Virus record (IMG/VR): IMGVR_UViG_3300008050_000306
Location: 1 to 24,417 of that record
Origin: a virus
Direction: 5' to 3' (one strand)
DNA: 24,417 nt
Of the stretch, positions 4 to 24,417 are shown in pieces. The notes beneath the pieces were generated by a model. That model saw only the letters and a program-made list of their open reading frames with translations. It was not told the DNA's origin and did no database searches. Every line of letters starts with the position of its first letter. Within the stretch, counting starts at the first letter, position 1. The translations under genes were made by a program, and so were the position numbers.

Positions 4-3000
4 TTAGTGTACACAGTTATCATCACAATCACAAACCACAATTCCAGCAGCATCTTCGCTATCAACGAAGTCCCACGCATCATAATCGAATGTGGTACAC
101 TTAGCCAAGTACGCCCTCTTACTAATCTGGATTGGTGCCTCACCACTCCTTGAGTATTTTAATGATACTAATATGTAAGGTACTTTGATAGTATCTTCAT
201 CTGCCGTACCAGCCAATCTTAACCATCCAGCATATTGTACAATATCTCCAATTGTTAGAGTATCCTTATCTAATACAGAACTAAGAGTCATAACATTATC
301 ACTATCATCGATTAAAGCAGCCGTACTAGGGTAAACATCCATCTGTGTCATTGAACTACCGTTGAATACTGATAAACTCACCTTCCAATCATCTACTAAG
401 TCTAAGCCCCTAACCTTTAATCTCATCGTTTCGTCAGCTTGCCAAGCGAATTGAGTTATTACACTGTTATTAATGGTATCAACATCAGGATTAGTTACCG
501 ATGCTGGTGGTGCTGGTGTTGATGTAAGGGGTCCTGTAGCTGCATCTGCGGCTGCCGTACTACCTCCACCAGAAGGTGATGGTGTAGCAATATTTTGTGA
601 AAGATAGGCTTTAGCAGAACCATCTGGGTCAGTACCCTCAAAAACTTGTCCTGTTGCACCACTACTAGGTGTACTCTTAACAATTATGGTATCTGCCCTA
701 GGGTCGTATATCTCAGTGTTAGCAAAGAAGTTGAATGAAACCGCATTCTGTAGTTTGTTGATAGGTCCCTTCATACTTGAACCACCAATGAATGAGAATT
801 GCATATCCACGGTTGCAATCATAGGTTGAACACCCACACCCTCTGGGTTTAAATCCCAAACCAATGGTTCATACGTAAAACTCATATTATCAATCACAAT
901 TTTGGTATGATAGAAGTCACCAATCCTTAGAATACAAACTGGTGGTCTACCGAACGCAAGGTTATCTGGCTTCTCATAGTTATTGCTCAAGGTAGGTCCC
1001 TGTCTCGTACATTGCTGTAGGAAAGTCAATCTAGAGTTGAATCCTTCAGGTGTTATGGAATGGAACGCTGGGTGGAAGAAACCAATCTTCTCACTGATAC
1101 TATCGTATACAACCTTATCGTCCTGTTGTAACTTTTTGAAGAAACCTATTTCATTATAGAATCTCCCCTTAATATCATTATTTAAGTTTATTGGGTCAGG
1201 GTCAGTTTGCAATGCTGATAGGTTTTGTATCTTATCAGGATTAGCCTCTTCAGCTAACTTACTATCCCAAGTGAAGCTTACCACAACCTTTATATTCTCT
1301 TTGATACCTTTACTATCCAGTGGTACTATTGTATCAGCCAACGGAACTGGATTTTGTATTGTTAGTGTAACAGGCGTAACAGGTGCTTGAATAGTTTTGT
1401 ACCTCTTATATTTTACTGGGTCTTCCGCAGCAGGTAAGCTCCAATCATCAAGCATCATTTGTTTAAGATTAATAGCTCTGAAATTTACTGCACGTGTATT
1501 TTCTCCCGTAACACCATAAGAGGTCAAAGTGACCTTACAGCCAATACATTTTTTAAATTTTTCCTTAGCTGCATCTAATACGTCACTGGATACATCTTTA
1601 TTTAAACCAAAGTTAGTGCTATCATTTCTAGTTACACCATCAACATCAATATAGGTACCAGCATAGATGCCATTACCAAATCCAGTTGGGTTAGTTGCTG
1701 CATCAAACCCTTCACCATTCTCGTATCCTTGATTAGTAACATCAGTTAGTTCACCATCATTATAAGGGAAGTACATAACGAAATCATCTGGAACAGACAC
1801 TGGCGTAATGTTCGCTTCTACTACTGCGAAATTTCGTTTAATCTCTATTTGATTAATCTCATCTAAACTTAATTTACTTCTAACCCTATTATCCACGTCA
1901 AAGGAGCCAGCAAAGAACGCATTAATCAATTCATCACTCTCACCTTTAAGGTTATTCAAATATGATGGGTGGTCAATGATTACCTTGAACTGAAGTGTCC
2001 CAGTTCTCAAAGTATTATTATACGTGAACATTGGTTCACCTCTACCAATGAAATCAGTTGCTTCCCAATTAACACTAACATTATCATTGAAATTCATCTC
2101 ATAAGGTGGGAACCACATGATTCTACCCTTCTTACCTGTTAAGGTATCTCCTGGTCCGATTTCACTTGGTATTAGTTTGGTCGATGATACATCAGCCCAT
2201 GCCAAGTTCTCAATTGAGAACATGTAGTTCCTCATATTAACGTTATCGTTTATCTCGTCACCACCATGTTGGTCACCGTAGGGTGCAATCTTTACAAATC
2301 CATTATCACCCAATACTGAATTACCCAAATTCCCTCTAGAGTTAGTACCAGCATTTGGATTTAAACCTGAATGCTTCTGTAGGTCTTCGACACTATCATA
2401 TCTATCGTATGTCGTCCATGTCCTTGAAAACATCTTATCAGGGTCAGTCTCAGGTAGGTTACCATTGAACTTTTTAACTGCACTACCTTTGGATATTACG
2501 GCACCAGCAGCAGAATCCACGGTTGTATTCATCTCACCTTTTAATGTCTTAGCATACTTGCTTGTTGAAAGATTAACCATCTTATCAGCTTGCTGGAATA
2601 ACCGTTGGGTTTTCGCTAGAATGGTTTTCTTATCGAACGTAACATCTGTCTCAACACCCTCTTTTGGGTTATCCCATTGGAAGTCCTTTCCGACTACGAA
2701 CTCTTCATCAGAAGATTTGGTGGTAATCAAGTTCTCTAAACCTTTAAAACCAAAACCATCAGCCATATTCTGGTTATAAACAGATTGAGCTATAATGGAA
2801 TTCTCGTCACCATTCAGTAAATCAATAACACCACCTTTACCGTCACCGAATGCGTATATATTTGGGTTTATACCCCCGTCAGGGTCTCTTTCATCAACAA
2901 AACCAGGTGCATACCCACTTTTAACCTCATTTGAGTTAAGTAGACTTGCTCTTAAGTTTGCGAATAATGCCAATACTTGTCCCCTACCAGTATTCTGAAT

Positions 3001-4059
3001 CATGCTATTAGCACGTTGAATGTTTGGTACAGGGTTTTCACTTTGGAAAATGGATGACGATTGAGCTAATAAGCTTATTGGGATTTGGATACCTAGAATT
3101 CTTTCAGTAAAGTTGAAAAGCCCCCTAGTCGAACCTTTGGCTACCGTTATATTATAGTTGGGTACAATAATATCATTACCCATCATTAAACTAGTTGGAT
3201 TGAGATTAATGTTACCTAAAGTTTCTTCGTATAGGTTGGCACCTACGTTATATTGGATTGCATTGAATAAACCTTCGGATGCAGCTATACCCAATGGTGT
3301 TTCATCATCAATGTTTGAACCACCTAATAAGCCTTGAACTTCGAATACTGGATTTGGTTCAATACCAGAATTTGGTGTAGTACCACCTAATAAGTTTCCA
3401 AGGATATTTGAAGCGGAACCAACGACACTACCATCACCATTACCTACAATACCAGTCATTCTGGTCATATAGTTGGGAAGGTTTTTATCTGTAACTACTG
3501 GTATGGTTACAATATCCTTTAATATTTGAGCATCTAAATCTAAATACTTGGAAGCAACTACATTCTTAGTTCTCTCCATGATAGAAGTTTCATCTTTACC
3601 TAATCTACCTGAAGTCATACCATACTCCGTATCACTTGGAAGTAGTGGACTTCTCAGTTGGATATCTATTATTGTTTGTTCACCTAGGACATTTTTATAC
3701 TTATTATTGATGACATTCAAATCATTATATAATAGACTATTCTCAACCAAGTTAGCACTATTCACCCAATATTTACCTTCATTTTCTTCAACATTAGGTA
3801 AGTAGACTACTGATACCTTTCTAATATCTTCCAACTCACCATGATGCTTATTGTTTATCAACATAAGGTCTCGATGTAATTCACCGATGATTTCAAGGTC
3901 TTCAGAAGGATGAACATTTGGTGTATTATGTCCAATTGATACGAAATTACCAATACCATAAGTAAGAGATTCCAAACCATTATTGGATATGCTATCTGCT
4001 ATGATATTTCTACCTAGGAGAACTTCTCTAAAACTTGGTGCTGTGCTACTGATGTCCAT
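4..4059 (-). CDS. Giant baseplate/tail hub protein with CIS-tube/LysM-adaptor-like core
   Basis: A 1351-residue protein, last gene of the leftward tail block and downstream of the tape measure, so a baseplate or tail-tip role is likely. Residues near 650-720 contain WFPPYEMNFNDNVSVNWE, then FIGRGEP and RTGTLQFKVIIDHPSYL. This resembles the N-terminal domain of contractile-injection-system tube/LysM adaptor proteins (Afp7 or gp53 type). A second conserved-looking block around 990-1130 holds GFFHPAFHSITPEGFNSRL, RIGDFYHTKIVIDNMSF and LNPEGVGVQPMIATVDMQF, a pattern I associate with large phage tail proteins. The region between, near 770-790, has FPYNDGELTDV. A low-complexity linker rich in Ser, Gly, Ala, Pro and Thr (about 1150-1190) precedes a C-terminal beta-rich domain that ends in a Cys/Asp cluster, CDCDDNC. 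No signal peptide or membrane segment is evident. The start ATG is preceded by an A/T leader and a TATTTATA motif. Structural role is fairly sure, the exact baseplate position is not. Confidence 0.6.
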   Translation of the reverse strand: MDISSTAPSFREVLLGRNIIADSISNNGLESLTYGIGNFVSIGHNTPNVHPSEDLEIIGELHRDLMLINNKHHGELEDIRKVSVVYLPNVEENEGKYWVNSANLVENSLLYNDLNVINNKYKNVLGEQTIIDIQLRSPLLPSDTEYGMTSGRLGKDETSIMERTKNVVASKYLDLDAQILKDIVTIPVVTDKNLPNYMTRMTGIVGNGDGSVVGSASNILGNLLGGTTPNSGIEPNPVFEVQGLLGGSNIDDETPLGIAASEGLFNAIQYNVGANLYEETLGNINLNPTSLMMGNDIIVPNYNITVAKGSTRGLFNFTERILGIQIPISLLAQSSSIFQSENPVPNIQRANSMIQNTGRGQVLALFANLRASLLNSNEVKSGYAPGFVDERDPDGGINPNIYAFGDGKGGVIDLLNGDENSIIAQSVYNQNMADGFGFKGLENLITTKSSDEEFVVGKDFQWDNPKEGVETDVTFDKKTILAKTQRLFQQADKMVNLSTSKYAKTLKGEMNTTVDSAAGAVISKGSAVKKFNGNLPETDPDKMFSRTWTTYDRYDSVEDLQKHSGLNPNAGTNSRGNLGNSVLGDNGFVKIAPYGDQHGGDEINDNVNMRNYMFSIENLAWADVSSTKLIPSEIGPGDTLTGKKGRIMWFPPYEMNFNDNVSVNWEATDFIGRGEPMFTYNNTLRTGTLQFKVIIDHPSYLNNLKGESDELINAFFAGSFDVDNRVRSKLSLDEINQIEIKRNFAVVEANITPVSVPDDFVMYFPYNDGELTDVTNQGYENGEGFDAATNPTGFGNGIYAGTYIDVDGVTRNDSTNFGLNKDVSSDVLDAAKEKFKKCIGCKVTLTSYGVTGENTRAVNFRAINLKQMMLDDWSLPAAEDPVKYKRYKTIQAPVTPVTLTIQNPVPLADTIVPLDSKGIKENIKVVVSFTWDSKLAEEANPDKIQNLSALQTDPDPINLNNDIKGRFYNEIGFFKKLQQDDKVVYDSISEKIGFFHPAFHSITPEGFNSRLTFLQQCTRQGPTLSNNYEKPDNLAFGRPPVCILRIGDFYHTKIVIDNMSFTYEPLVWDLNPEGVGVQPMIATVDMQFSFIGGSSMKGPINKLQNAVSFNFFANTEIYDPRADTIIVKSTPSSGATGQVFEGTDPDGSAKAYLSQNIATPSPSGGGSTAAADAATGPLTSTPAPPASVTNPDVDTINNSVITQFAWQADETMRLKVRGLDLVDDWKVSLSVFNGSSMTQMDVYPSTAALIDDSDNVMTLSSVLDKDTLTIGDIVQYAGWLRLAGTADEDTIKVPYILVSLKYSRSGEAPIQISKRAYLAKCTTFDYDAWDFVDSEDAAGIVVCDCDDNCVH

Positions 4060-4078
4060 AATAGTATATACGTTTGTA

Positions 4079-4087
4079 TATAAATAC
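4079..4087 (-). promoter_or_regulatory. Late-promoter-like motif GTATTTATA
   Basis: On the minus strand this reads GTATTTATA, 19 nt before the ATG of the 1351-aa gene. It is one of nine similar sites in the window. The same bases read TATAAATA on the plus strand, the T4 late consensus, so direction is uncertain here. Confidence 0.4.
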
Positions 4088-4172
4088 TATTTTAATGGAA
4101 TTTTTCGTGAAGTAAATGATACTTTCTTCAATCTGAAGGTAGAAGTCCTGAAAATTTCTCTAATAGGACCAA

Positions 4173-4201
4173 ATATAATACATAGATATATAGTATTATA
4201 T
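4173..4201. repeat. AT-rich inverted repeat (hairpin)
   Basis: A perfect 9-bp arm, core TATAATAC paired with GTATTATA, with an 11-nt loop. It lies in the non-coding gap and could form a hairpin in a transcript of either strand. There is no T run directly after it, so it is not a standard terminator. Confidence 0.5.
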
Positions 4202-4206
4202 ATATA

Positions 4207-4242
4207 GCTTAAAGCTTATAGGCTTAAAGCCTTGTTTTTTAT
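4207..4242 (+). terminator. Terminator-like hairpin read on the plus strand
   Basis: GCTTAAAGC, a 6-nt loop TTATAG, then GCTTAAAGC pair at 8 of 9 positions with one central A-A mismatch, followed by CTTGTTTTTT on the plus strand. As an intrinsic terminator it would stop rightward transcripts, which is odd because both flanking genes are leftward. It could end a small RNA or block antisense transcription into the tape-measure gene. Confidence 0.4.
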
Positions 4243-4350
4243 AATTATTATTGTTTTTGGTTGGGCTACGCCTGACCCCCTATAATCCCCCATGATGATA
4301 CAAATAAACACAATTAAATTGGAAAAGTCAAGGGGTAAGTGAAAATAAAT

Positions 4351-6831
4351 TTACCCAACAGGGTTTGGATTTAATTTTCCACCTGAAATATTTATGCTCA
4401 ACTGTTGTTGTACCAATTGGGTCATTTCCTTAATGAAAAATGGGTCTTTCAGTAGGTTGTCATGTACGTTACCACCATTAGCATCTTTAATTACAATTTC
4501 ACCATTAAGTTTCATATCACCAAATTCCATCTTAGAATTTCCACCACCACCACCAGACTTTCCACCAATTAGGTCATCTAATTTACCTTTTTGAGTGGAC
4601 GCAATAACACCATCATCAGCTTTTAGGAATTTATCTTGAGGGTTGAATTGAACAATACCATCATTCACCATAGCACCACCAACGTCACCCAATTTATCAC
4701 CTAAGAAATCACCACCCATTCCACCTAAGATACCACCAATAATTCCACCGATTGCCGTACCAACTACTGGTACCACACTACCAATCGCTGCACCTGCGGC
4801 TGCACCACCCCAAGCACCTAGACCAGCACCAGCACCTCTAGCTACTGTTCTACCTACGTTCTCACCTGTACTCATACCTTCTTCTGCGTTTGTCGTCCAT
4901 TCGTTATAACCACTCATACCAGCAGCCAATAGCCCACCACCAATTGCACCACCACCTTTAAGGTTTCTACCGAAACCACCACCCATACCCATCTTAGTTG
5001 CTGCGCCAGAACCCACACCAGCAGCGCCAGTTGCAGTAGGTGGAACACCCTTCATACCAGGAATCCCACTACCCATAATTCCGAAACCTGCCCTAAGTGC
5101 TTTACCATTTGCATACCATTGAGCTAGATTAAAGAATACTTTCCCACCGATATAAGTCAGTGCGGTTGTAATGGGGTTATTAACAATCCATTTACCTAGA
5201 ACACCAACAATATTACCCATGGTCGTAGCGAACTCTTTAATCGAATCAATCCAACCTTCCTTTTGCATTCGTTCCTGTAAATTATTAAGAGGACCGACCA
5301 GATTTTCAGTCAAGGCTTCAATAAATGGTAATGCCATTGTTTGGAATTGAGAGACTAGGTTATTGAACGCATCGTCAAAGGTTTGTGCTTGTTTAGCACG
5401 TTCTTTAAGTGATTCTTGTTCTCTCTTATAATTTCTTAATTCACTTTGATTCATTTCACTAAGGAATTTAGTACCACCATTCATGGTTACTTCCCATTGA
5501 CCTGAATCCTTATCGAATTTAGCTAAGGACGCTATTAATTCTCTATCTTCTTTGTCTGAGACCACTGAAGGTATAAGACTTTCAATTTTATTGAACTTCG
5601 CACCAGCCCTCGCCATCTCTGACATATTCTCAACGCTTAGACCTGTTATATCAGCCAATTCACGCATTCTATCCAATTGTAGTCCGTTAATGTCGAACTC
5701 ACCTGTCTTTTCATTGAATTGTGCAAATTCAGAAGCTGCCGCACCAACATCTTTCATGAAACCTTCCATATCATTTCTAGCCTTGAACATCAAAGTGAAT
5801 GGGTCACCAAGCCTAGCCATCTGACCACCCATGGTTGCCAATCTAGCTGACATCTCAACGGCACCTTCTGGTCTGAATACTTTTTCAGCCATACTAGATA
5901 CGTTCTCCATATCCATATTCATTTTGGATGCATATGCAGCCATATCAGCCATTCCAGTCACCCCACCCTTGAAATGATACTTCTGAGCCATTTTAAGGGC
6001 TGTACCAAGCTCTTTAAGCGTCTTAGTGGCATTTGCGCCCATCTTGTAAGCCGCATCAACGGTTTCTTGAACCGCATCTCTTGAACCTTCAACGCTAAGA
6101 CCGAAGCCTTCCATCGAAGCAGCCATAGTTGCTGCACCCTCAACGCCCAATGAAGTACCTTTGGCTATTTCAGCCATAGCTTCATAACCACGTTCAGATA
6201 ACATCATACTCCTACCGATACTCTCTGAGTATTCAGCTTGAGATTTTGCCATATCCTTTATCCCGAAACCAATCTGAATAGTTGATTCGGAAGCTTTGGA
6301 CATTGTTTTAGAGAAGAACTTAGATTGATTGGATAGAATACCCATACTAAGCTCGGCTTGCTTAATCTCTTTGGACATCTCCAACGCCTTAAGGTCGGTA
6401 ACCCATCTATATGTTTTCTTGGCTAGACCTGGAATCTTATCCCAAGCTTTACCCATACCCTTATAGGCAAGGTTAGCTAAACCAACTTCTTTTACTGTTT
6501 TTTTAAGTATCTCAAGATGTTCAACGGCATCTTTAGCTGCAAGTCTATGTTGTTTTCTTAGTTTTTTATGAGCAGCAATCTGATTTTCTAGTTCTGCATA
6601 TCTTGGGTCGGCTACGGCTGTAACTGCAAGTTCAGCCCTAGCTTGAGCAATTTCATAGGTGAATAGAGCCTCTTGTTCTAATAGGGCATTAACCTGAGCT
6701 TGTTGTTTACCAAGGTCTTTTATTCCGTTTATATAGGTACCAAAGTCTTTGCCAACCTCTTTTTGGAGTTTGGCAATCTTTTCCAACATTTCATAGTGAC
6801 GCTTTGCGTCTTTTCTGCTAAACCCTGCCAT
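4351..6831 (-). CDS. Tail tape measure protein
   Basis: An 826-residue protein in the tape-measure position: after sheath, tube and gp26/gp51-like genes, before the baseplate-type gene. It would set tail length and lie inside the tube before DNA ejection. Residues 1-115 are charged and helical with likely coiled coil. Residues about 150-480 are Ala/Met/Glu/Lys-rich helices with repeated MA, MAA and AKxA patterns. A Gly/Ala-rich hydrophobic stretch at about 668-716 (AAAGAAIG, GGIIGGILGGMGGDF) looks like the membrane-active segment common in tape measures. A Gly run and a short amphipathic C-terminus follow. No lytic transglycosylase or peptidase motif is seen. The gene overlaps the upstream 448-aa gene by one base (TAATG), which suggests translational coupling. 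At the usual 0.15 nm per residue the tail would be roughly 120 nm, an inference only. Confidence 0.75.
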   Translation of the reverse strand: MAGFSRKDAKRHYEMLEKIAKLQKEVGKDFGTYINGIKDLGKQQAQVNALLEQEALFTYEIAQARAELAVTAVADPRYAELENQIAAHKKLRKQHRLAAKDAVEHLEILKKTVKEVGLANLAYKGMGKAWDKIPGLAKKTYRWVTDLKALEMSKEIKQAELSMGILSNQSKFFSKTMSKASESTIQIGFGIKDMAKSQAEYSESIGRSMMLSERGYEAMAEIAKGTSLGVEGAATMAASMEGFGLSVEGSRDAVQETVDAAYKMGANATKTLKELGTALKMAQKYHFKGGVTGMADMAAYASKMNMDMENVSSMAEKVFRPEGAVEMSARLATMGGQMARLGDPFTLMFKARNDMEGFMKDVGAAASEFAQFNEKTGEFDINGLQLDRMRELADITGLSVENMSEMARAGAKFNKIESLIPSVVSDKEDRELIASLAKFDKDSGQWEVTMNGGTKFLSEMNQSELRNYKREQESLKERAKQAQTFDDAFNNLVSQFQTMALPFIEALTENLVGPLNNLQERMQKEGWIDSIKEFATTMGNIVGVLGKWIVNNPITTALTYIGGKVFFNLAQWYANGKALRAGFGIMGSGIPGMKGVPPTATGAAGVGSGAATKMGMGGGFGRNLKGGGAIGGGLLAAGMSGYNEWTTNAEEGMSTGENVGRTVARGAGAGLGAWGGAAAGAAIGSVVPVVGTAIGGIIGGILGGMGGDFLGDKLGDVGGAMVNDGIVQFNPQDKFLKADDGVIASTQKGKLDDLIGGKSGGGGGNSKMEFGDMKLNGEIVIKDANGGNVHDNLLKDPFFIKEMTQLVQQQLSINISGGKLNPNPVG

Positions 6832-8219: not shown

Positions 8220-8537
8220 TTAGCCTGTAATTTCGCCAGACCTCAACTTAGACTTTAAAGCTTCGCCAGTAACCGTGGTTGTTCTGGTTCCTTTAGCTGA
8301 AGATGCGCTCTTACTTTTCTCGTCATAATACTCTTGTCTAGCCTTATTCTCATTCATCAAAAGGTGTAATTGGAACCTTCTACTGAACGTAGGCATCTTA
8401 AGTAAATCGGTATAACTATATCCGATATGTTTAACACAGACGAAGAATTCCTCTTCTAACCAGTTACGGTACTCATGAGTTAGACCAAAAAAAGTTGAAG
8501 TTAAATGGAAGAAACGTACTAACGGACTCACCCCCAC
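8220..8537 (-). CDS. gp51-like baseplate-hub assembly / tail chaperone frame, probably made by frameshift
   Basis: This frame overlaps the end of the gp26-like gene by 65 bp and is offset +1. From about residue 17 it reads FGLTHEYRNWLEEEFFVC, then YSYTDLLKMPTFSRRFQLHLL. This matches the pattern of T4 gp51 (E-F near the start, G-(F/Y)-(T/S)-W/Y-x-(D)-(L)-Y/L-x-MP-x-x-x-R-x-F/Q). A Ser/Lys/Thr-rich tail follows (about 75-105). The only start before the conserved part is GTG at 8535-8537, without a Shine-Dalgarno sequence; the first ATG is inside the conserved MP motif. A +1 or -2 shift on the T7 run at 8487-8493 would join this frame to the upstream protein and give a fusion of about 420 residues. 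Coordinates cover the open frame from the GTG; the translated part more likely begins near 8486. Confidence 0.6.
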   Translation of the reverse strand: MGVSPLVRFFHLTSTFFGLTHEYRNWLEEEFFVCVKHIGYSYTDLLKMPTFSRRFQLHLLMNENKARQEYYDEKSKSASSAKGTRTTTVTGEALKSKLRSGEITG

Positions 8538-9489
8538 TTGTCCGTACTTCGATTTTTAAATTAACACCTGATTCGTTATCGTCATAGAACTTTCTGAAAG
8601 CTCTAATATCCCCTAATCTCATCTCATCAATGTACTTGATTAAGAATGTTGGGTCACTATTTCCGTTTGCTGTCACAATTTGTCGTTGTAACGTGTAAGA
8701 TGACCTATGATTAACTTGTGATTTAGCTTCATCATCTTTCTCAATCTGAGCTTCAATAGCTTCCTCATCTCTAACCGTAAGATAACGATACTTGATTACA
8801 TCTTTACTTTGTGGACATTCGAAGTCGAAGTACCCGTTTTCATCTGGTTCCTTCTCCATGTAGATATATTCCAAATCGTTAAGGTCATATTCAACCTCTT
8901 CGGCTACACCGTCATTACCGATTACCGTCATTGAGTACATGTTACCGAATGAGCTACCTCTCAACCATATCATAATGGCGTTTCGGTCACCCAATAGTAA
9001 ATCTTCATACTTCAAGTTTGGTTCCAATAGATTACGACTAATCAAAACTTTAAGGAAGTCACCACTCTCCAATAGATTAGCTGATGTCAGAATATTCTCA
9101 TCTGAACCAGTCATATATGCCACCTTAACATTTGCTTTAACACCTTTATAGGTTTTACCTTTTGAAGGTAGTGGTATCATGTCATAAGAAGCATCCCATT
9201 TAGGCATCATCAACGCATTGAATTCAACATCAACTGCTGGTGTTGGTATCATTGGTTGTGGTGGTGCTACTTGAGGTGGTGCTACGGTAGTTTGCGCTAT
9301 TTGTTCATAACTGTTAGCCTCTGGTGCTGGTGGAGTTTGATTAAGAAGCGCTTCATCACGAAGTCTTATTTGTTCCTCTGTGCGCCTCATCATTTCTTGT
9401 TGCGCCTCATTTAATTTGTCGTTATTTGCGTGTGGGTCACCTTGTGCCGTATTAGCAGGTGGGAAAACATTTGGTTTTTTATCAGCCAT
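8473..9489 (-). CDS. T4 gp26-family baseplate hub / tail assembly protein
   Basis: A 338-residue protein of the T4 gp26/T4_baseplate family. Residues 1-95 are a low-complexity Pro/Gln/Ala-rich leader. The family core starts at about 100: IPLPSKGKTYKG (105-116), then AYMTGSDENIL and LKVLISRNLLEP, followed by YEDLLLGDRNAIMIWLRGSSFGNMY (split here as YEDLLLGDRNAI / MIWLRGSSFGNMY, 161-185), the hallmark DLL-GDRN-R-SS-G pattern. The usual metal-binding CxxC pairs are degraded to GNDG and TSGG. The C-terminus FLPFNFNFFW is the expected family end, so the zero-frame product is complete. It ends directly after a T7 run that overlaps the gp51-like frame. It lies 11 nt downstream of the 125-aa gene and is probably co-transcribed with it. 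Position between tube and tape measure is that of tail-assembly chaperones, so a chaperone role is plausible; T4 gp26 acts in hub assembly. Confidence 0.75.
   Translation of the reverse strand: MADKKPNVFPPANTAQGDPHANNDKLNEAQQEMMRRTEEQIRLRDEALLNQTPPAPEANSYEQIAQTTVAPPQVAPPQPMIPTPAVDVEFNALMMPKWDASYDMIPLPSKGKTYKGVKANVKVAYMTGSDENILTSANLLESGDFLKVLISRNLLEPNLKYEDLLLGDRNAIMIWLRGSSFGNMYSMTVIGNDGVAEEVEYDLNDLEYIYMEKEPDENGYFDFECPQSKDVIKYRYLTVRDEEAIEAQIEKDDEAKSQVNHRSSYTLQRQIVTANGNSDPTFLIKYIDEMRLGDIRAFRKFYDDNESGVNLKIEVRTSGGESVSTFLPFNFNFFWSNS
8487..8493 (-). other. T7 run, candidate +1/-2 frameshift site
   Basis: On the minus strand the zero frame reads AAC TTT TTT TGG TCT AAC TCA TGA. A +1 slip (skip one T) or a -2 slip on the run gives TTT GGT CTA ACT CAT, which enters the gp51-like frame. 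A -1 shift would instead hit TAA within a few codons. The run is seven bases and lies 11 bases before the zero-frame stop. Confidence 0.5.
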
Positions 9490-15368: not shown

Positions 15369-17198
15369 ATGATAGACTTAGAGAACATCAAGGGAAGAAA
15401 AGCTTTAATCCGATTGGGGTTATATGATGGACGTAACCCGTACCTCATTAAACTTAAAGCGGAATATAAGAAGAAAGGGAAGATTACTCTTAGCAATACT
15501 CAAGAAGCTTACATACTTAACAATTTCGATAAAGACCCCGTAAAGGTGGATAGAGTGGTAACACTATCTGAATATATAGGTGAGGAACTTAAGGAGAAGT
15601 ATTCCATGTCTTTCGTTCCTGTAAGAATGTATTTCGGGTTCATATTGGCGCAGACTGATAAGTCTTACCACGTTTACGGTAAGCTTAAACAAAATCAAAA
15701 GGATAACGCCATGTACTGGATTCCTAAGACGCAAGTTATGGAAGACCCATTCTTTGCCCCTGTGGATATTGATATGGACTTCACCAGATACTTGGAGCTT
15801 GATACCAAAAGTAGAACACCATTCCAACACCAAGAAGAAGGTATTAAATTCCTATTGAGTAGAGATGGATGTATCCTAGCTGACGATATGGGATTGGGTA
15901 AAACCTACCAAGCAATCGTTGCTGCTCTGGAAACTGGCGCTGAAAATGTATTAATCGTATGCCCAGCATCTACCAAAATTAACTGGAAAAGAGAGATTGA
16001 GATGTTCGGTGAAACTGACATTGCAATTATCAATAGTTACCAATGGGAATCTGCCAAGTGGACAATCATAAATTATGACATCCTTAAGAATTTCCACACC
16101 ATCACACCTAAGACCAAGAAGGAACGGGAAGCTGTTGAATTCTGGGATAGAGATATCATGGAAGAGAACTTTGATATCATGATTGTGGATGAAGCTCATA
16201 AGGTTAAAGACCCTAAGAGTAATAGAGGTGCTATCGTTGGTGAGTTGTCTAAGAACCCAGCAACGAAGTGTACGTGGCTCTTAACTGGTACGCCTGTCGC
16301 CAATAGACCTAAAGACTTTTTCAACCTCTTAAAAATCATTAAAAGCCCTCTGGCTGATAACTATCCGTTCTTTATGAAGAGGTATTGTGATGCTAAGACA
16401 TTATATAAGAAATTACCAAGCGGTGGCACCAGAAAGATATTGATTGCTAATGGTGAATCCAACTTGGATGAACTGTCAATCAAATCAAGGAACTACGTTA
16501 TGCGTAGACTTAAGGAGGATGTATTGGATATGCCTGATAAGATTGTTACACCGACTCACCACGAGTTAACCGAAGCTCAAGTACGTGAGTATGATTTCCT
16601 ATGGGAAGAATATTTGGAAGAAAGAAAAGCAAAGAAGAAAAAAGGTACGCCTGATAAAGACTTGGTGGAGATTATTCTACTGAGGAAATTCATTGCCAAA
16701 TCTGCGATAGAGAAGACAATTGAAATGGCTGAGACCGCTATTGAGGATAACCAAAAAGTTGTCATCTTCACGACATTTAATGAGGAACAAAATGAACTGG
16801 CTGAATACTTCGGTAGTAAGTGTGTTCGACATAATGGTTCAATGAATGATGCCGAGAAGCAAAAATCTGTTGATAAATTCCAGAAGAATAAAGGTACGAA
16901 GGTATTCATAGGGAATATCATATCTGCTGGTGTTGGTATAACATTGACGGAAGGTACCGTTGTGATATTCAATTCCTTTGACTGGGTTCCAGGTAATAAT
17001 GAACAAGCTGAAGATAGGTGTTACAGAATTGGACAGGAGAATACGGTTAACGTATACTACCAGTTATTTGAAGATACTATCACCACCAGAATGTGGTATA
17101 CCGTATTAAGAAAGAGAGGTATCATTGACCAGATTATCGGTACTAATACCTCTGGAATGTCAGAAGATGTGATTGATTATTTAACGGAAGAGGATTGA
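15369..17198 (+). CDS. SNF2-family DNA-dependent ATPase/helicase
   Basis: A 609-residue superfamily 2 SNF2-like translocase. Motifs in order: Q motif FQHQEEGIKFLL (152-163), Walker A DDMGLGKT (172-179), motif Ia LIVCPAST, DEAH box at 274-277, motif III LLTGTP (304-309), motif IV VVIFTTF near 464, motif V ISAGVGITLT (518-527), motif VI QAEDRCYRIGQ (546-556). The DRxxRIGQ form and the compact size resemble SMARCAL1/ZRANB3-type fork-remodelling ATPases. The first 150 residues have no clear domain and may carry substrate binding. In T4 the SF2 helicase UvsW remodels forks and recombination intermediates; this protein could play a similar role, which is inference. All catalytic residues are present. 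Its end overlaps the convergent 306-aa gene by 22 bp. It lies between structural genes rather than with the other replication genes. Confidence 0.9.
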   Translation: MIDLENIKGRKALIRLGLYDGRNPYLIKLKAEYKKKGKITLSNTQEAYILNNFDKDPVKVDRVVTLSEYIGEELKEKYSMSFVPVRMYFGFILAQTDKSYHVYGKLKQNQKDNAMYWIPKTQVMEDPFFAPVDIDMDFTRYLELDTKSRTPFQHQEEGIKFLLSRDGCILADDMGLGKTYQAIVAALETGAENVLIVCPASTKINWKREIEMFGETDIAIINSYQWESAKWTIINYDILKNFHTITPKTKKEREAVEFWDRDIMEENFDIMIVDEAHKVKDPKSNRGAIVGELSKNPATKCTWLLTGTPVANRPKDFFNLLKIIKSPLADNYPFFMKRYCDAKTLYKKLPSGGTRKILIANGESNLDELSIKSRNYVMRRLKEDVLDMPDKIVTPTHHELTEAQVREYDFLWEEYLEERKAKKKKGTPDKDLVEIILLRKFIAKSAIEKTIEMAETAIEDNQKVVIFTTFNEEQNELAEYFGSKCVRHNGSMNDAEKQKSVDKFQKNKGTKVFIGNIISAGVGITLTEGTVVIFNSFDWVPGNNEQAEDRCYRIGQENTVNVYYQLFEDTITTRMWYTVLRKRGIIDQIIGTNTSGMSEDVIDYLTEED

Positions 17199-18097
17199 GT
17201 TAAATCCTTTGCAATCAAGTCCCTTAAATAATCAGATTGACTCATATCTAAGGCTAGTAAACGCTCACCCAACATATCGTAGACACTATTATGTATCCTC
17301 ACTTGCACAACTTTATCCTTAGCAGGCTTAGTATATTTTATTGGTGACTGTAAGAATTCAGCATGTAATTCCTGTCTTATCTTCCTACTATCATTATTAA
17401 AGGCGCAACACATATTCTTGTACCACTCATCATTATATTTAGAACTTACCGTACATGGTAGGTATAGTGATACATAAGGATTGGTACTATTTATTGAACC
17501 TTCATAGATATAATGGAAATACTCCATACCGTTTGGTGTTGAGGCTATAATTATCTGACTTTCCTTATCCATGTATCGCTCAAGATACTCAACAAGGGAA
17601 TCCATTTGATATATGTAAGCCCCTTCATCGAATACTACAGCCCTAATCGTATCAAATCTAATATGATGCACATTATGAAGTCTATCTAATGACCTCACTT
17701 CTGAAGCGCACACAAATAATCTGTTACCATTGTATAGGTGAAGGTCACGACTATTATTAGTTCTGGTCATATCGTTTAAATCCAATTTGTTGACTTCACA
17801 ATAATGTCTCAATATGGTTTTAACTCGCTTAACAAAACGTGTGGAGAGTGCAAACTTATTCGAAAAATATAAGAACACCTTACAATCATCCTTATTGGTT
17901 AGAAGCTGCCAAGCATAGTAAGCGGCTAACATATGTGTTGCATGCATCTGTCTGCTCTTTCTAATAATTGCGAATTGATTATTTTCTATAAGGTCAAAAA
18001 ATTCATGCTGGTAATCATCCAACTCAAACACCTCATTAACACCCTTAATTAGATTAAAACCGTAGTAGTAGTCTCTTATAAAATCTTTAAACCCCAT
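17177..18097 (-). CDS. Terminase-like ATPase domain with dead Walker A and a C-terminal ribbon-helix-helix domain
   Basis: A 306-residue protein with the T4 gp17-type terminase ATPase scaffold: Q motif LDDYQHEFF (26-34), IIRKSRQ (44-50), Walker B AVVFDEGAYI (153-162), coupling motif IIIASTPNG (182-190), and IRQELHAEFLQS (240-251), which normally marks the end of the ATPase domain. The Walker A, usually SRQxGK(S/T), reads SRQMHATHM: Gly and Lys are replaced by His and Ala, so ATP hydrolysis is unlikely. The nuclease domain is absent. Residues 262-300 read VVQVRIHNSVYDMLGERLLA then DMSQSDYLRDLIAKDL, the strand-helix-helix pattern of ribbon-helix-helix (CopG/Arc) DNA-binding domains. I infer a catalytically inactive terminase paralogue recruited for DNA binding: a packaging modulator or a repressor. 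The frame is clean and no decay is visible. It is opposite in strand to its neighbours and overlaps the helicase gene end by 22 bp. Confidence 0.75.
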   Translation of the reverse strand: MGFKDFIRDYYYGFNLIKGVNEVFELDDYQHEFFDLIENNQFAIIRKSRQMHATHMLAAYYAWQLLTNKDDCKVFLYFSNKFALSTRFVKRVKTILRHYCEVNKLDLNDMTRTNNSRDLHLYNGNRLFVCASEVRSLDRLHNVHHIRFDTIRAVVFDEGAYIYQMDSLVEYLERYMDKESQIIIASTPNGMEYFHYIYEGSINSTNPYVSLYLPCTVSSKYNDEWYKNMCCAFNNDSRKIRQELHAEFLQSPIKYTKPAKDKVVQVRIHNSVYDMLGERLLALDMSQSDYLRDLIAKDLTQSSSVK

Positions 18098-18148
18098 TTG
18101 TATTACACTTTAAAACTTTTGTTATACAAATAAGTATCAGGCTAGAAG

Positions 18149-23632: not shown

Positions 23633-24417
23633 TTATATTACAATGTGTAATGTGGTACCACTACGCCATATAGACCCTGAAGGTAATGTACCAGCACTTG
23701 TTGGAATATCCATCAGAGACAAGTTATTCATGAATGTAGTACAAACTCTATTGGCGGTTATATTATTACCGATTACGAATGCACATCCACACCCACCGTC
23801 ATTATTACCACTACCACCTAAGATACCAGAATAATTACCTGATGCAGTATTCTGACTACCACCAGCAATCGATGTATAATCGCCTCCAGCAATATTGGCT
23901 CTACCACCACCTACGGCACTCGTGTGACCAGACGCCACGTTAACGGTACCACCAGCAATGGTTGATATGTCACAAGCTTGATTATTAATACCACCACCTA
24001 TGAATGCGTGATAACCAGAAGCAGTATTATATCTACCACCACCAATCGTTGAACAATCACCACCAGCGTTATTACCAGCACCACCAGCAATTGTGGCTGA
24101 ATTACCAGAAGCGATATTATAACAACCACCAGCTACTGTTGTATAGTAATTAGATGCTGTGTTGGTAAATCCACCACCGATTGTTGAGTCACGATAAGTT
24201 ACATTATGACACCTACCACCACCAATGGCTGAGTATTGAGCCGTTGCGTGGTTACATTGACCACCAGCTACGGTTGAGTAATCATTACAAGTGATATTCT
24301 CTCTACCACCACCAATTGTTGAACACGCACCATTAGCATGATTAGTACACCCACCACCGATGGTTGATGTATTACCTGTTGCGACATTCAGCCTACCACC
24401 ACCAATTGTTGAACACG
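23633..24417 (-). CDS. Repetitive tail-fibre/adhesin-type protein, 5' end beyond the window
   Basis: The frame stays open from the stop at 23633 to the right edge, so about 260 C-terminal residues are visible. Fourteen copies of a 15-residue unit, STIGGGRxNxASGxx-like (variants STVAGG, SAIGGG, ATIAGG), make up the body, each encoded by 45 bp. The STIxGGxxN pattern is that of YadA-head/left-handed beta-roll repeats in trimeric adhesins and phage fibres. After the repeats the end is CAFVIGNNITANRVCTTFM, then NNLSLMDIPTSAGTLPSG and WRSGTTLHIV, a C-terminal tip domain that I associate with phage structural proteins. The repeats carry an unusual number of Cys at variable positions. A GTG at 23936-23938 is only an internal codon, not the start. 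It probably binds the host surface, as a trimer. Confidence 0.7.
   Translation of the reverse strand, partial: CSTIGGGRLNVATGNTSTIGGGCTNHANGACSTIGGGRENITCNDYSTVAGGQCNHATAQYSAIGGGRCHNVTYRDSTIGGGFTNTASNYYTTVAGGCYNIASGNSATIAGGAGNNAGGDCSTIGGGRYNTASGYHAFIGGGINNQACDISTIAGGTVNVASGHTSAVGGGRANIAGGDYTSIAGGSQNTASGNYSGILGGSGNNDGGCGCAFVIGNNITANRVCTTFMNNLSLMDIPTSAGTLPSGSIWRSGTTLHIVI

Follow-up and report, generated by a model that had tools for sequence, protein, structure and literature searches.

The window, by which we mean the whole stretch of DNA analyzed (24,417 bases), is an IMG/VR fragment from a contractile-tailed phage, the sheath, tube, and polymerase genes of which match tail-sheath, tail-tube, and DNA-polymerase families; contigs carrying relatives of its polymerase and helicase reach up to 369 kb. 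The gene considered here is designated TERX, as is its family. It is flanked by SNF2 helicase and glutaredoxin (grx) genes, is antisense to both, and is a single gene that forms no operon with an adjacent toxin gene; on these grounds, a type II toxin–antitoxin system was rejected. The features of the locus are as follows:

17177–18097, minus strand: TERX gene, 306 aa; nuclease-less terminase ATPase with a predicted ribbon-helix-helix (RHH) tail
17345–18097, minus strand: T4 gp17-type terminase ATPase domain, residues 1–251 (phrog_2 match; Foldseek 2o0h)
17936–17959, minus strand: variant Walker A, residues 47–54, KSRQMHAT; relocated Lys K47, P-loop Gly replaced by H52 (from motif counts)
17624–17629, minus strand: Walker B Asp157 and catalytic Glu158 (88/88 in terminases; E158 in 11/15 of the family)
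17528–17542, minus strand: motif III, STPNG, residues 186–190
17186–17311, minus strand: predicted RHH domain, residues 263–304 (R267, S288, Y290, R292, and L294 invariant, 15/15)
18119–18129, minus strand: putative operator box 1, TTGTATAACAA
18098–18108, minus strand: putative operator box 2, GTGTAATACAA, adjoining the start codon
18130–18136, minus strand: promoter-like element TACTTAT, directly before box 1 (promoter function judged from the sequence only)

Other genes of the window and its relatives also had distinctive features. Degenerate repeats of about 14 residues (STIGGGxxNxASG), resembling the head repeats of trimeric adhesins, were found at 23633–24415 (minus strand), which is probably part of a tail-fibre gene that continues beyond the contig end. 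At 8220–9489 (minus strand), upstream of a tape-measure-like gene, two ORFs (338 and 105 aa) in different frames share 65 bases; they could be a tail-assembly chaperone pair expressed by programmed frameshifting. In relatives, an intein-like insert of about 370–385 aa follows the GLGK of Walker A in the SNF2 helicase (L135, 1216–4167; L087, 8357–11293; L266, 2579–5560, minus strand), and the window copy is without this insert. In L264, which also carries TERX, a primary-sigma-factor-like gene (3683–4621, minus strand) starts with MRQLKITKSITNR; we take it to resemble Bacteroidota RpoD, which hints at Bacteroidota hosts for this phage.

The terminase ATPase domain and its catalytic residues

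A preliminary description of the locus had reported that the order of terminase ATPase motifs is kept, and all five (LDDYQ, SRQMHATHM, VVFDE, STPNG, and RQELHAEFLQS) were indeed found in that order, on the minus strand. The terminase fold suggested for the N-terminal part was recovered by each comparison: residues 18–251 match the phrog_2 terminase large subunit (E-value = 1.1e-15), residues 19–224 match T4 gp17 in a search of PDB sequences (E-value = 9.5e-6), and the best solved match of the predicted fold (pLDDT 85.7) is the gp17 ATPase domain 2o0h (Foldseek, E-value = 8e-15, TM 0.66). Terminase_6N (Pfam) was matched by all 10 TERX members scanned. Home-built nuclease HMMs were used in place of Pfam Terminase_6C, which also misses true terminases, and gave values of 1e-67 to 1e-124 for real terminases as positive controls. 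With these models, built from the nuclease halves of 88 real terminases, no nuclease half was found in any frame of the window or at the other family loci tested; a nuclease in a neighbouring frame, which the preliminary description had named as grounds for abandoning its reading, was thus sought in all frames and none was found.

TERX shares with T4 gp17-type large terminases (PHROG 2, Terminase_6N) the ATPase fold, the Walker B Asp with the catalytic Glu, motif III, the conserved Arg, and the relocated Walker A Lys, whereas it has no RNase H-fold nuclease domain, carries a replaced P-loop Gly and an RHH tail, and lies outside the packaging block, adjoining SNF2/grx or polymerase genes and not the portal gene. 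TERX cannot cut DNA by itself, and genome packaging by the window protein is improbable. Because the nuclease and the P-loop Gly were both looked for and are absent, it should not be classified as a terminase.

It had also been described that the Walker A GK is replaced by HA, and the G-K of gp17 SRQLGKTT does align on H52-A53; however, the conclusion that the ATPase is dead for want of the Walker A Lys did not stand. The controls were 88 full-length homologues, ordinary terminases obtained in a search with a 5-row TERX alignment. Only 10 of these have the canonical Lys (window position 53); in the other 78, a Lys is found at position 47, two residues ahead of the Arg; the two positions are mutually exclusive, with both or neither occupied in 0/88. 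The position-47 set includes packaging terminases of the same phage group, and window TERX keeps this Lys together with R49, T54, D157, E158, and STPNG. Relocated or deviant Walker A motifs in terminases were already known, according to the citation of Mitchell and Rao 2004 in PMC5727402, and TERX shares with those enzymes, as cited there, the Lys ahead of the Arg. The homologues studied here, unlike TERX, keep the P-loop Gly (88/88) and the nuclease.

The real oddity of window TERX is therefore the loss of the P-loop Gly and not that of the Walker A Lys. Gly occupies position 52 in all full-length terminases versus 1/15 TERX sequences, the others having His (9), Phe (2), Asn (2), or Tyr (1), and the adenine-side Gln (position 30) is present in 88/88 terminases versus 5/15 TERX sequences. 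In L302, L303, L306, and L304, K47 is replaced by His and E158 by Asn, always together, and the tree needs at least two events for this joint change; E158 is thus lost in 4/15 members and kept in the window. The coupled loss speaks for K47 as the functional Lys and indicates that some TERX lineages may do without catalysis. For the close pair L303/L306, which is of this type, dN/dS was 0.15 (ATPase part, 0.19; tail, 0.05), so that the ATPase domain, even without its Glu, is still needed for something. In the window, the ATPase would probably still bind nucleotide through K47, R49, T54, D157, and E158, and perhaps hydrolyse it, in a pocket presumably altered by H52.

The C-terminal tail and the palindromic boxes

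The tail was modelled as an extended strand-like segment containing R267, followed by two helices with S288, Y290, R292, and L294; the strand itself is not formed in the monomer model. The nearest solved structures to the 50-aa model include Arc, TacA1, AmrZ, CopG, MatP, and ParD/ParD2, with E-values of about 1 and above because the piece is only 50 aa long. The Pfam RHH_1 cut-off was passed in the orthologue L266 (21.0 versus 20.5 bits), window TERX scoring below it and other members weakly, and an RHH profile run against PDB sequences gave no RHH match. The RHH part is closer than the ATPase half in 86 of 104 TERX pairs. Two features of RHH_1/CopG proteins were found, namely, a beta-alpha-alpha fold with conserved positions and short palindromic repeats at the promoter. 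The RHH C-terminus proposed in the preliminary description is therefore upheld by the tail model, the five invariant residues, and the RHH_1 match of L266, the window sequence itself lying below the threshold.

To that description, the present analysis adds the boxes. Directly before every TERX start codon stand two 11-bp inverted repeats, TTGTAnnACAA, 19–23 bp apart, in which the GTA and AC positions are unchanged in 30/30 boxes; the promoter-like element in most relatives is TATATTTAT or TATTTAT. The longest ORFs of L267, L307, and L262 begin within the boxes, and the family start corresponds in these to the next Met downstream. The pattern TGTANNACA-N10-15-TGTANNACA was matched a single time within the window (chance 0.02). 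In 20 phage records (3.1 Mb), the two-box pattern was found only before TERX, in 9 of the 11 TERX records and with one base different in the other two, and it was found in none of nine related TERX-less records (2.4 Mb), the reversed-pattern control also giving 0. A DNA-only search of 2.9 million viral contigs for the TATTTATTTGTA element with the boxes returned 14 contigs, in all of which the match sits before a TERX gene (seven of them new, one frameshifted). It should be noted that three TERX members share homologous flanks, and part of the box conservation in these could be due to descent. The lone palindrome showed no enrichment across whole genomes, and hence no wider regulon is claimed; no second target site was found in the genomes searched.

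A related conserved element, ATATTTAT, is located 11–59 bases before the window SNF2, grx, g385, g174, sheath, g123, tube, and g448 genes and looks like the phage promoter, because it stands upstream of so many other genes of the window; in reverse complement, it is similar to the T4 late promoter TATAAATA.

With box 1 abutting the promoter-like element and box 2 abutting the start codon, the arrangement would be a suitable place for an autorepressor. Binding of the boxes by the RHH domain is highly probable, and negative autoregulation of TERX is likely; the protein is very probably both DNA-binding and self-regulating. The earlier suggestion of a DNA-binding paralogue or repressor is supported for DNA binding, in line with the boxes, and its repressor part is narrowed by the operator evidence to autoregulation. 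Tandem palindromic boxes between a promoter-like element and the start, together with an RHH-like C-terminus, are shared with the Arc/CopG/ParD repressors; in TERX, however, the RHH ends a terminase ATPase domain of 250 residues, and there is no toxin or plasmid-copy partner gene.

Family, distribution, and coexisting terminases

The family comprises 15 intact sequences including that of the window (250–328 aa), the other 14 being from IMG/VR contigs and all having the same tail; the family and its architecture are virtually certain to be real, judging from these comparisons. The first orthologues came from loci retrieved through the neighbouring polymerase and helicase, identity to window TERX being 42% for L135, 35% for L003, and ~28–30% for L101 and L161. 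Further members were L262 and L264–L267, found with a DNA pattern of the P-loop signature, and L302–L308, found in the search for the element and boxes (TERX of L305 is frameshifted). The search for orthologues proposed in the preliminary description thus yielded 14 more members, with His at position 52 in 9/15 of the family. The P-loop pattern, which covers only members of the KxRQMH type, matched seven IMG/VR contigs, all with short RHH-tailed members, and nothing in 84,980 bacterial and archaeal genomes. A single-sequence search of IMG/VR gave no relative of window TERX, and tblastn of three TERX members against cultured phages gave only ordinary terminases among the matches listed, the full lists running to thousands of records.

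TERX is located between SNF2 and glutaredoxin in the window, L135, L003, and L266, between g127 and the polymerase in L101, L161, L265, L267, L302, and L307, and in unrelated surroundings in L262, L264, L303, and L304. It is missing at the SNF2/glutaredoxin spot in six close relatives and is antisense to its phage-core neighbours in syntenic phages; this distribution, in some relatives of giant phages, is an accessory-gene pattern. Divergence is fast, with 35–42% identity (L003, L135) versus 64–89% for most neighbouring genes. In the tree, TERX forms one side of a branch with support 55 and long branches, and a single origin appears likely. HNH endonuclease genes overlap the 3′ end of TERX in two different phage types, L266 (2079–2582) on the one hand and L304 and L308 (3084–3752 and 2702–3370, respectively) on the other.

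Intact terminases were found elsewhere in at least two TERX-carrying contigs. G026 (340 kb) has TERX at 188 kb and a 588-aa terminase beside the portal gene at 239 kb, and G036 (197 kb) has TERX at 86 kb and a 621-aa terminase beside the portal gene at 30 kb; the separate terminase anticipated in the preliminary description is therefore present in related contigs, the window being a 24 kb fragment. A closer relative, G001 (39.6 kb), carries a terminase of another kind (446 aa, GGSLSSGKS) together with a small-subunit-like gene; this is a weaker link than G026 and G036, because no other tested record of the group had that terminase. Secondary phrog_2 matches in G003 and G022 were rejected as terminases, since they lie on ORFs that we read as PhoH-like. 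Another short nuclease-less terminase-like protein, L282 (295 aa, 2879–3766; contig G012, 195 kb), resembles TERX in that its contig also carries a full terminase, whereas its P-loop Gly is kept and no RHH tail was seen.

The TERX architecture was not found in Pfam, NCBIfam, PHROGs, PADLOC, the PDB, or open-access papers, nor among the cultured-phage matches listed, in agreement with the earlier statement that no such protein had been described. Both halves are of known kinds; their combination with an operator of its own is, to our knowledge, new.

Proposed role and alternative explanations

On balance, TERX is probably an accessory protein that binds DNA, regulates its own gene, and derives from a terminase motor domain. 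It would be a moron-like protein in which a terminase ATPase domain lost its nuclease and gained an RHH. Dimers of the RHH would likely bind the two boxes, about two helical turns apart, and would likely repress TERX transcription, thereby fixing the protein level, while the ATPase domain may, with less certainty, be the effector. The ATPase half would most likely act by docking, with hydrolysis not always needed: it would assemble with the partners of real terminases (TerL, portal, or DNA, of its own or a rival phage) or compete for them. Docking is favoured over motor action because the fold is kept while the catalytic residues can be lost. The leading ideas for this half are a packaging competitor and a nucleotide sensor; packaging-related competition or modulation is possible, and we propose it with some doubt.

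The sensor idea can be carried further, to an autoregulated transcription factor with no packaging link, in which the ATPase would sense ATP or the state of the DNA and alter RHH binding. The gene-specific operator, the joint loss of Glu and Lys at least twice while the RHH and boxes stay, and the purifying selection on the ATPase part of the Glu-less pair (dN/dS 0.19) would all suit such a factor; yet, as no second target site was found in the searched genomes, it would regulate only itself, and we regard it as rather unlikely. Iterated palindromes beside a gene for an RHH–ATPase protein also recall partition, and, instead of an operator, the boxes could form a partition-like or tethering site, bound by RHH and NTPase in the ParG/ParR manner within one polypeptide. 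However, the ATPase is of terminase and not ParA/ParM type, the catalytic residues are dispensable in some members, and there are only two boxes, so that a partition or tethering role is very improbable.

Other explanations start from the spread of the gene or from its resemblance to a terminase. The patchy presence at several positions and the HNH genes overlapping TERX in L266 and L304/L308 would be expected of a mobile homing cassette, travelling with free-standing HNH endonucleases and persisting mainly by its own spread, but most members, the window included, have no adjacent HNH gene, and the TERX protein itself is under purifying selection; we consider this unlikely. About as improbable is a decoy for bacterial terminase sensors (Avs/AVAST), in which a look-alike with an altered active site would bind the sensor but leave it untriggered: the large terminase subunit or the portal is what Avs1-4 recognise (PMC12931631), and fast divergence and accessory distribution would fit, whereas no relation was found in PADLOC and a decoy needs neither an RHH nor an operator. 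Short terminase ORFs occur in other phages and L305 is frameshifted, which might indicate a terminase gene that is split or interrupted by an intron, TERX being one half, or a pseudogene in decay. As a general explanation, this is refuted by the fixed architecture (15 sequences of similar length that share the tail), the absence of a nuclease piece in any frame, the intact terminases in the same contigs, the conserved operator, and the selection (dN/dS 0.15), and it is hardly credible.

The large terminase is regarded as a phage hallmark that is universal and has a single purpose, and it is in wide use as a marker for trees and annotation. In TERX, its ATPase domain has been reused, alongside the real enzyme, in a probably self-regulated DNA-binding protein; short terminase matches can therefore mislead annotation. 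The natural series from loss of the Gly to joint loss of the Lys and Glu offers variants for studying the ATPase domain without translocation, and the operator makes autoregulation simply testable. Tentatively, TERX may represent a new class of protein, in which a former packaging motor domain, anchored by an RHH to a two-box site, would serve as a regulated switch or competitor in packaging or defence, with catalysis kept in some lineages and dropped at least twice.
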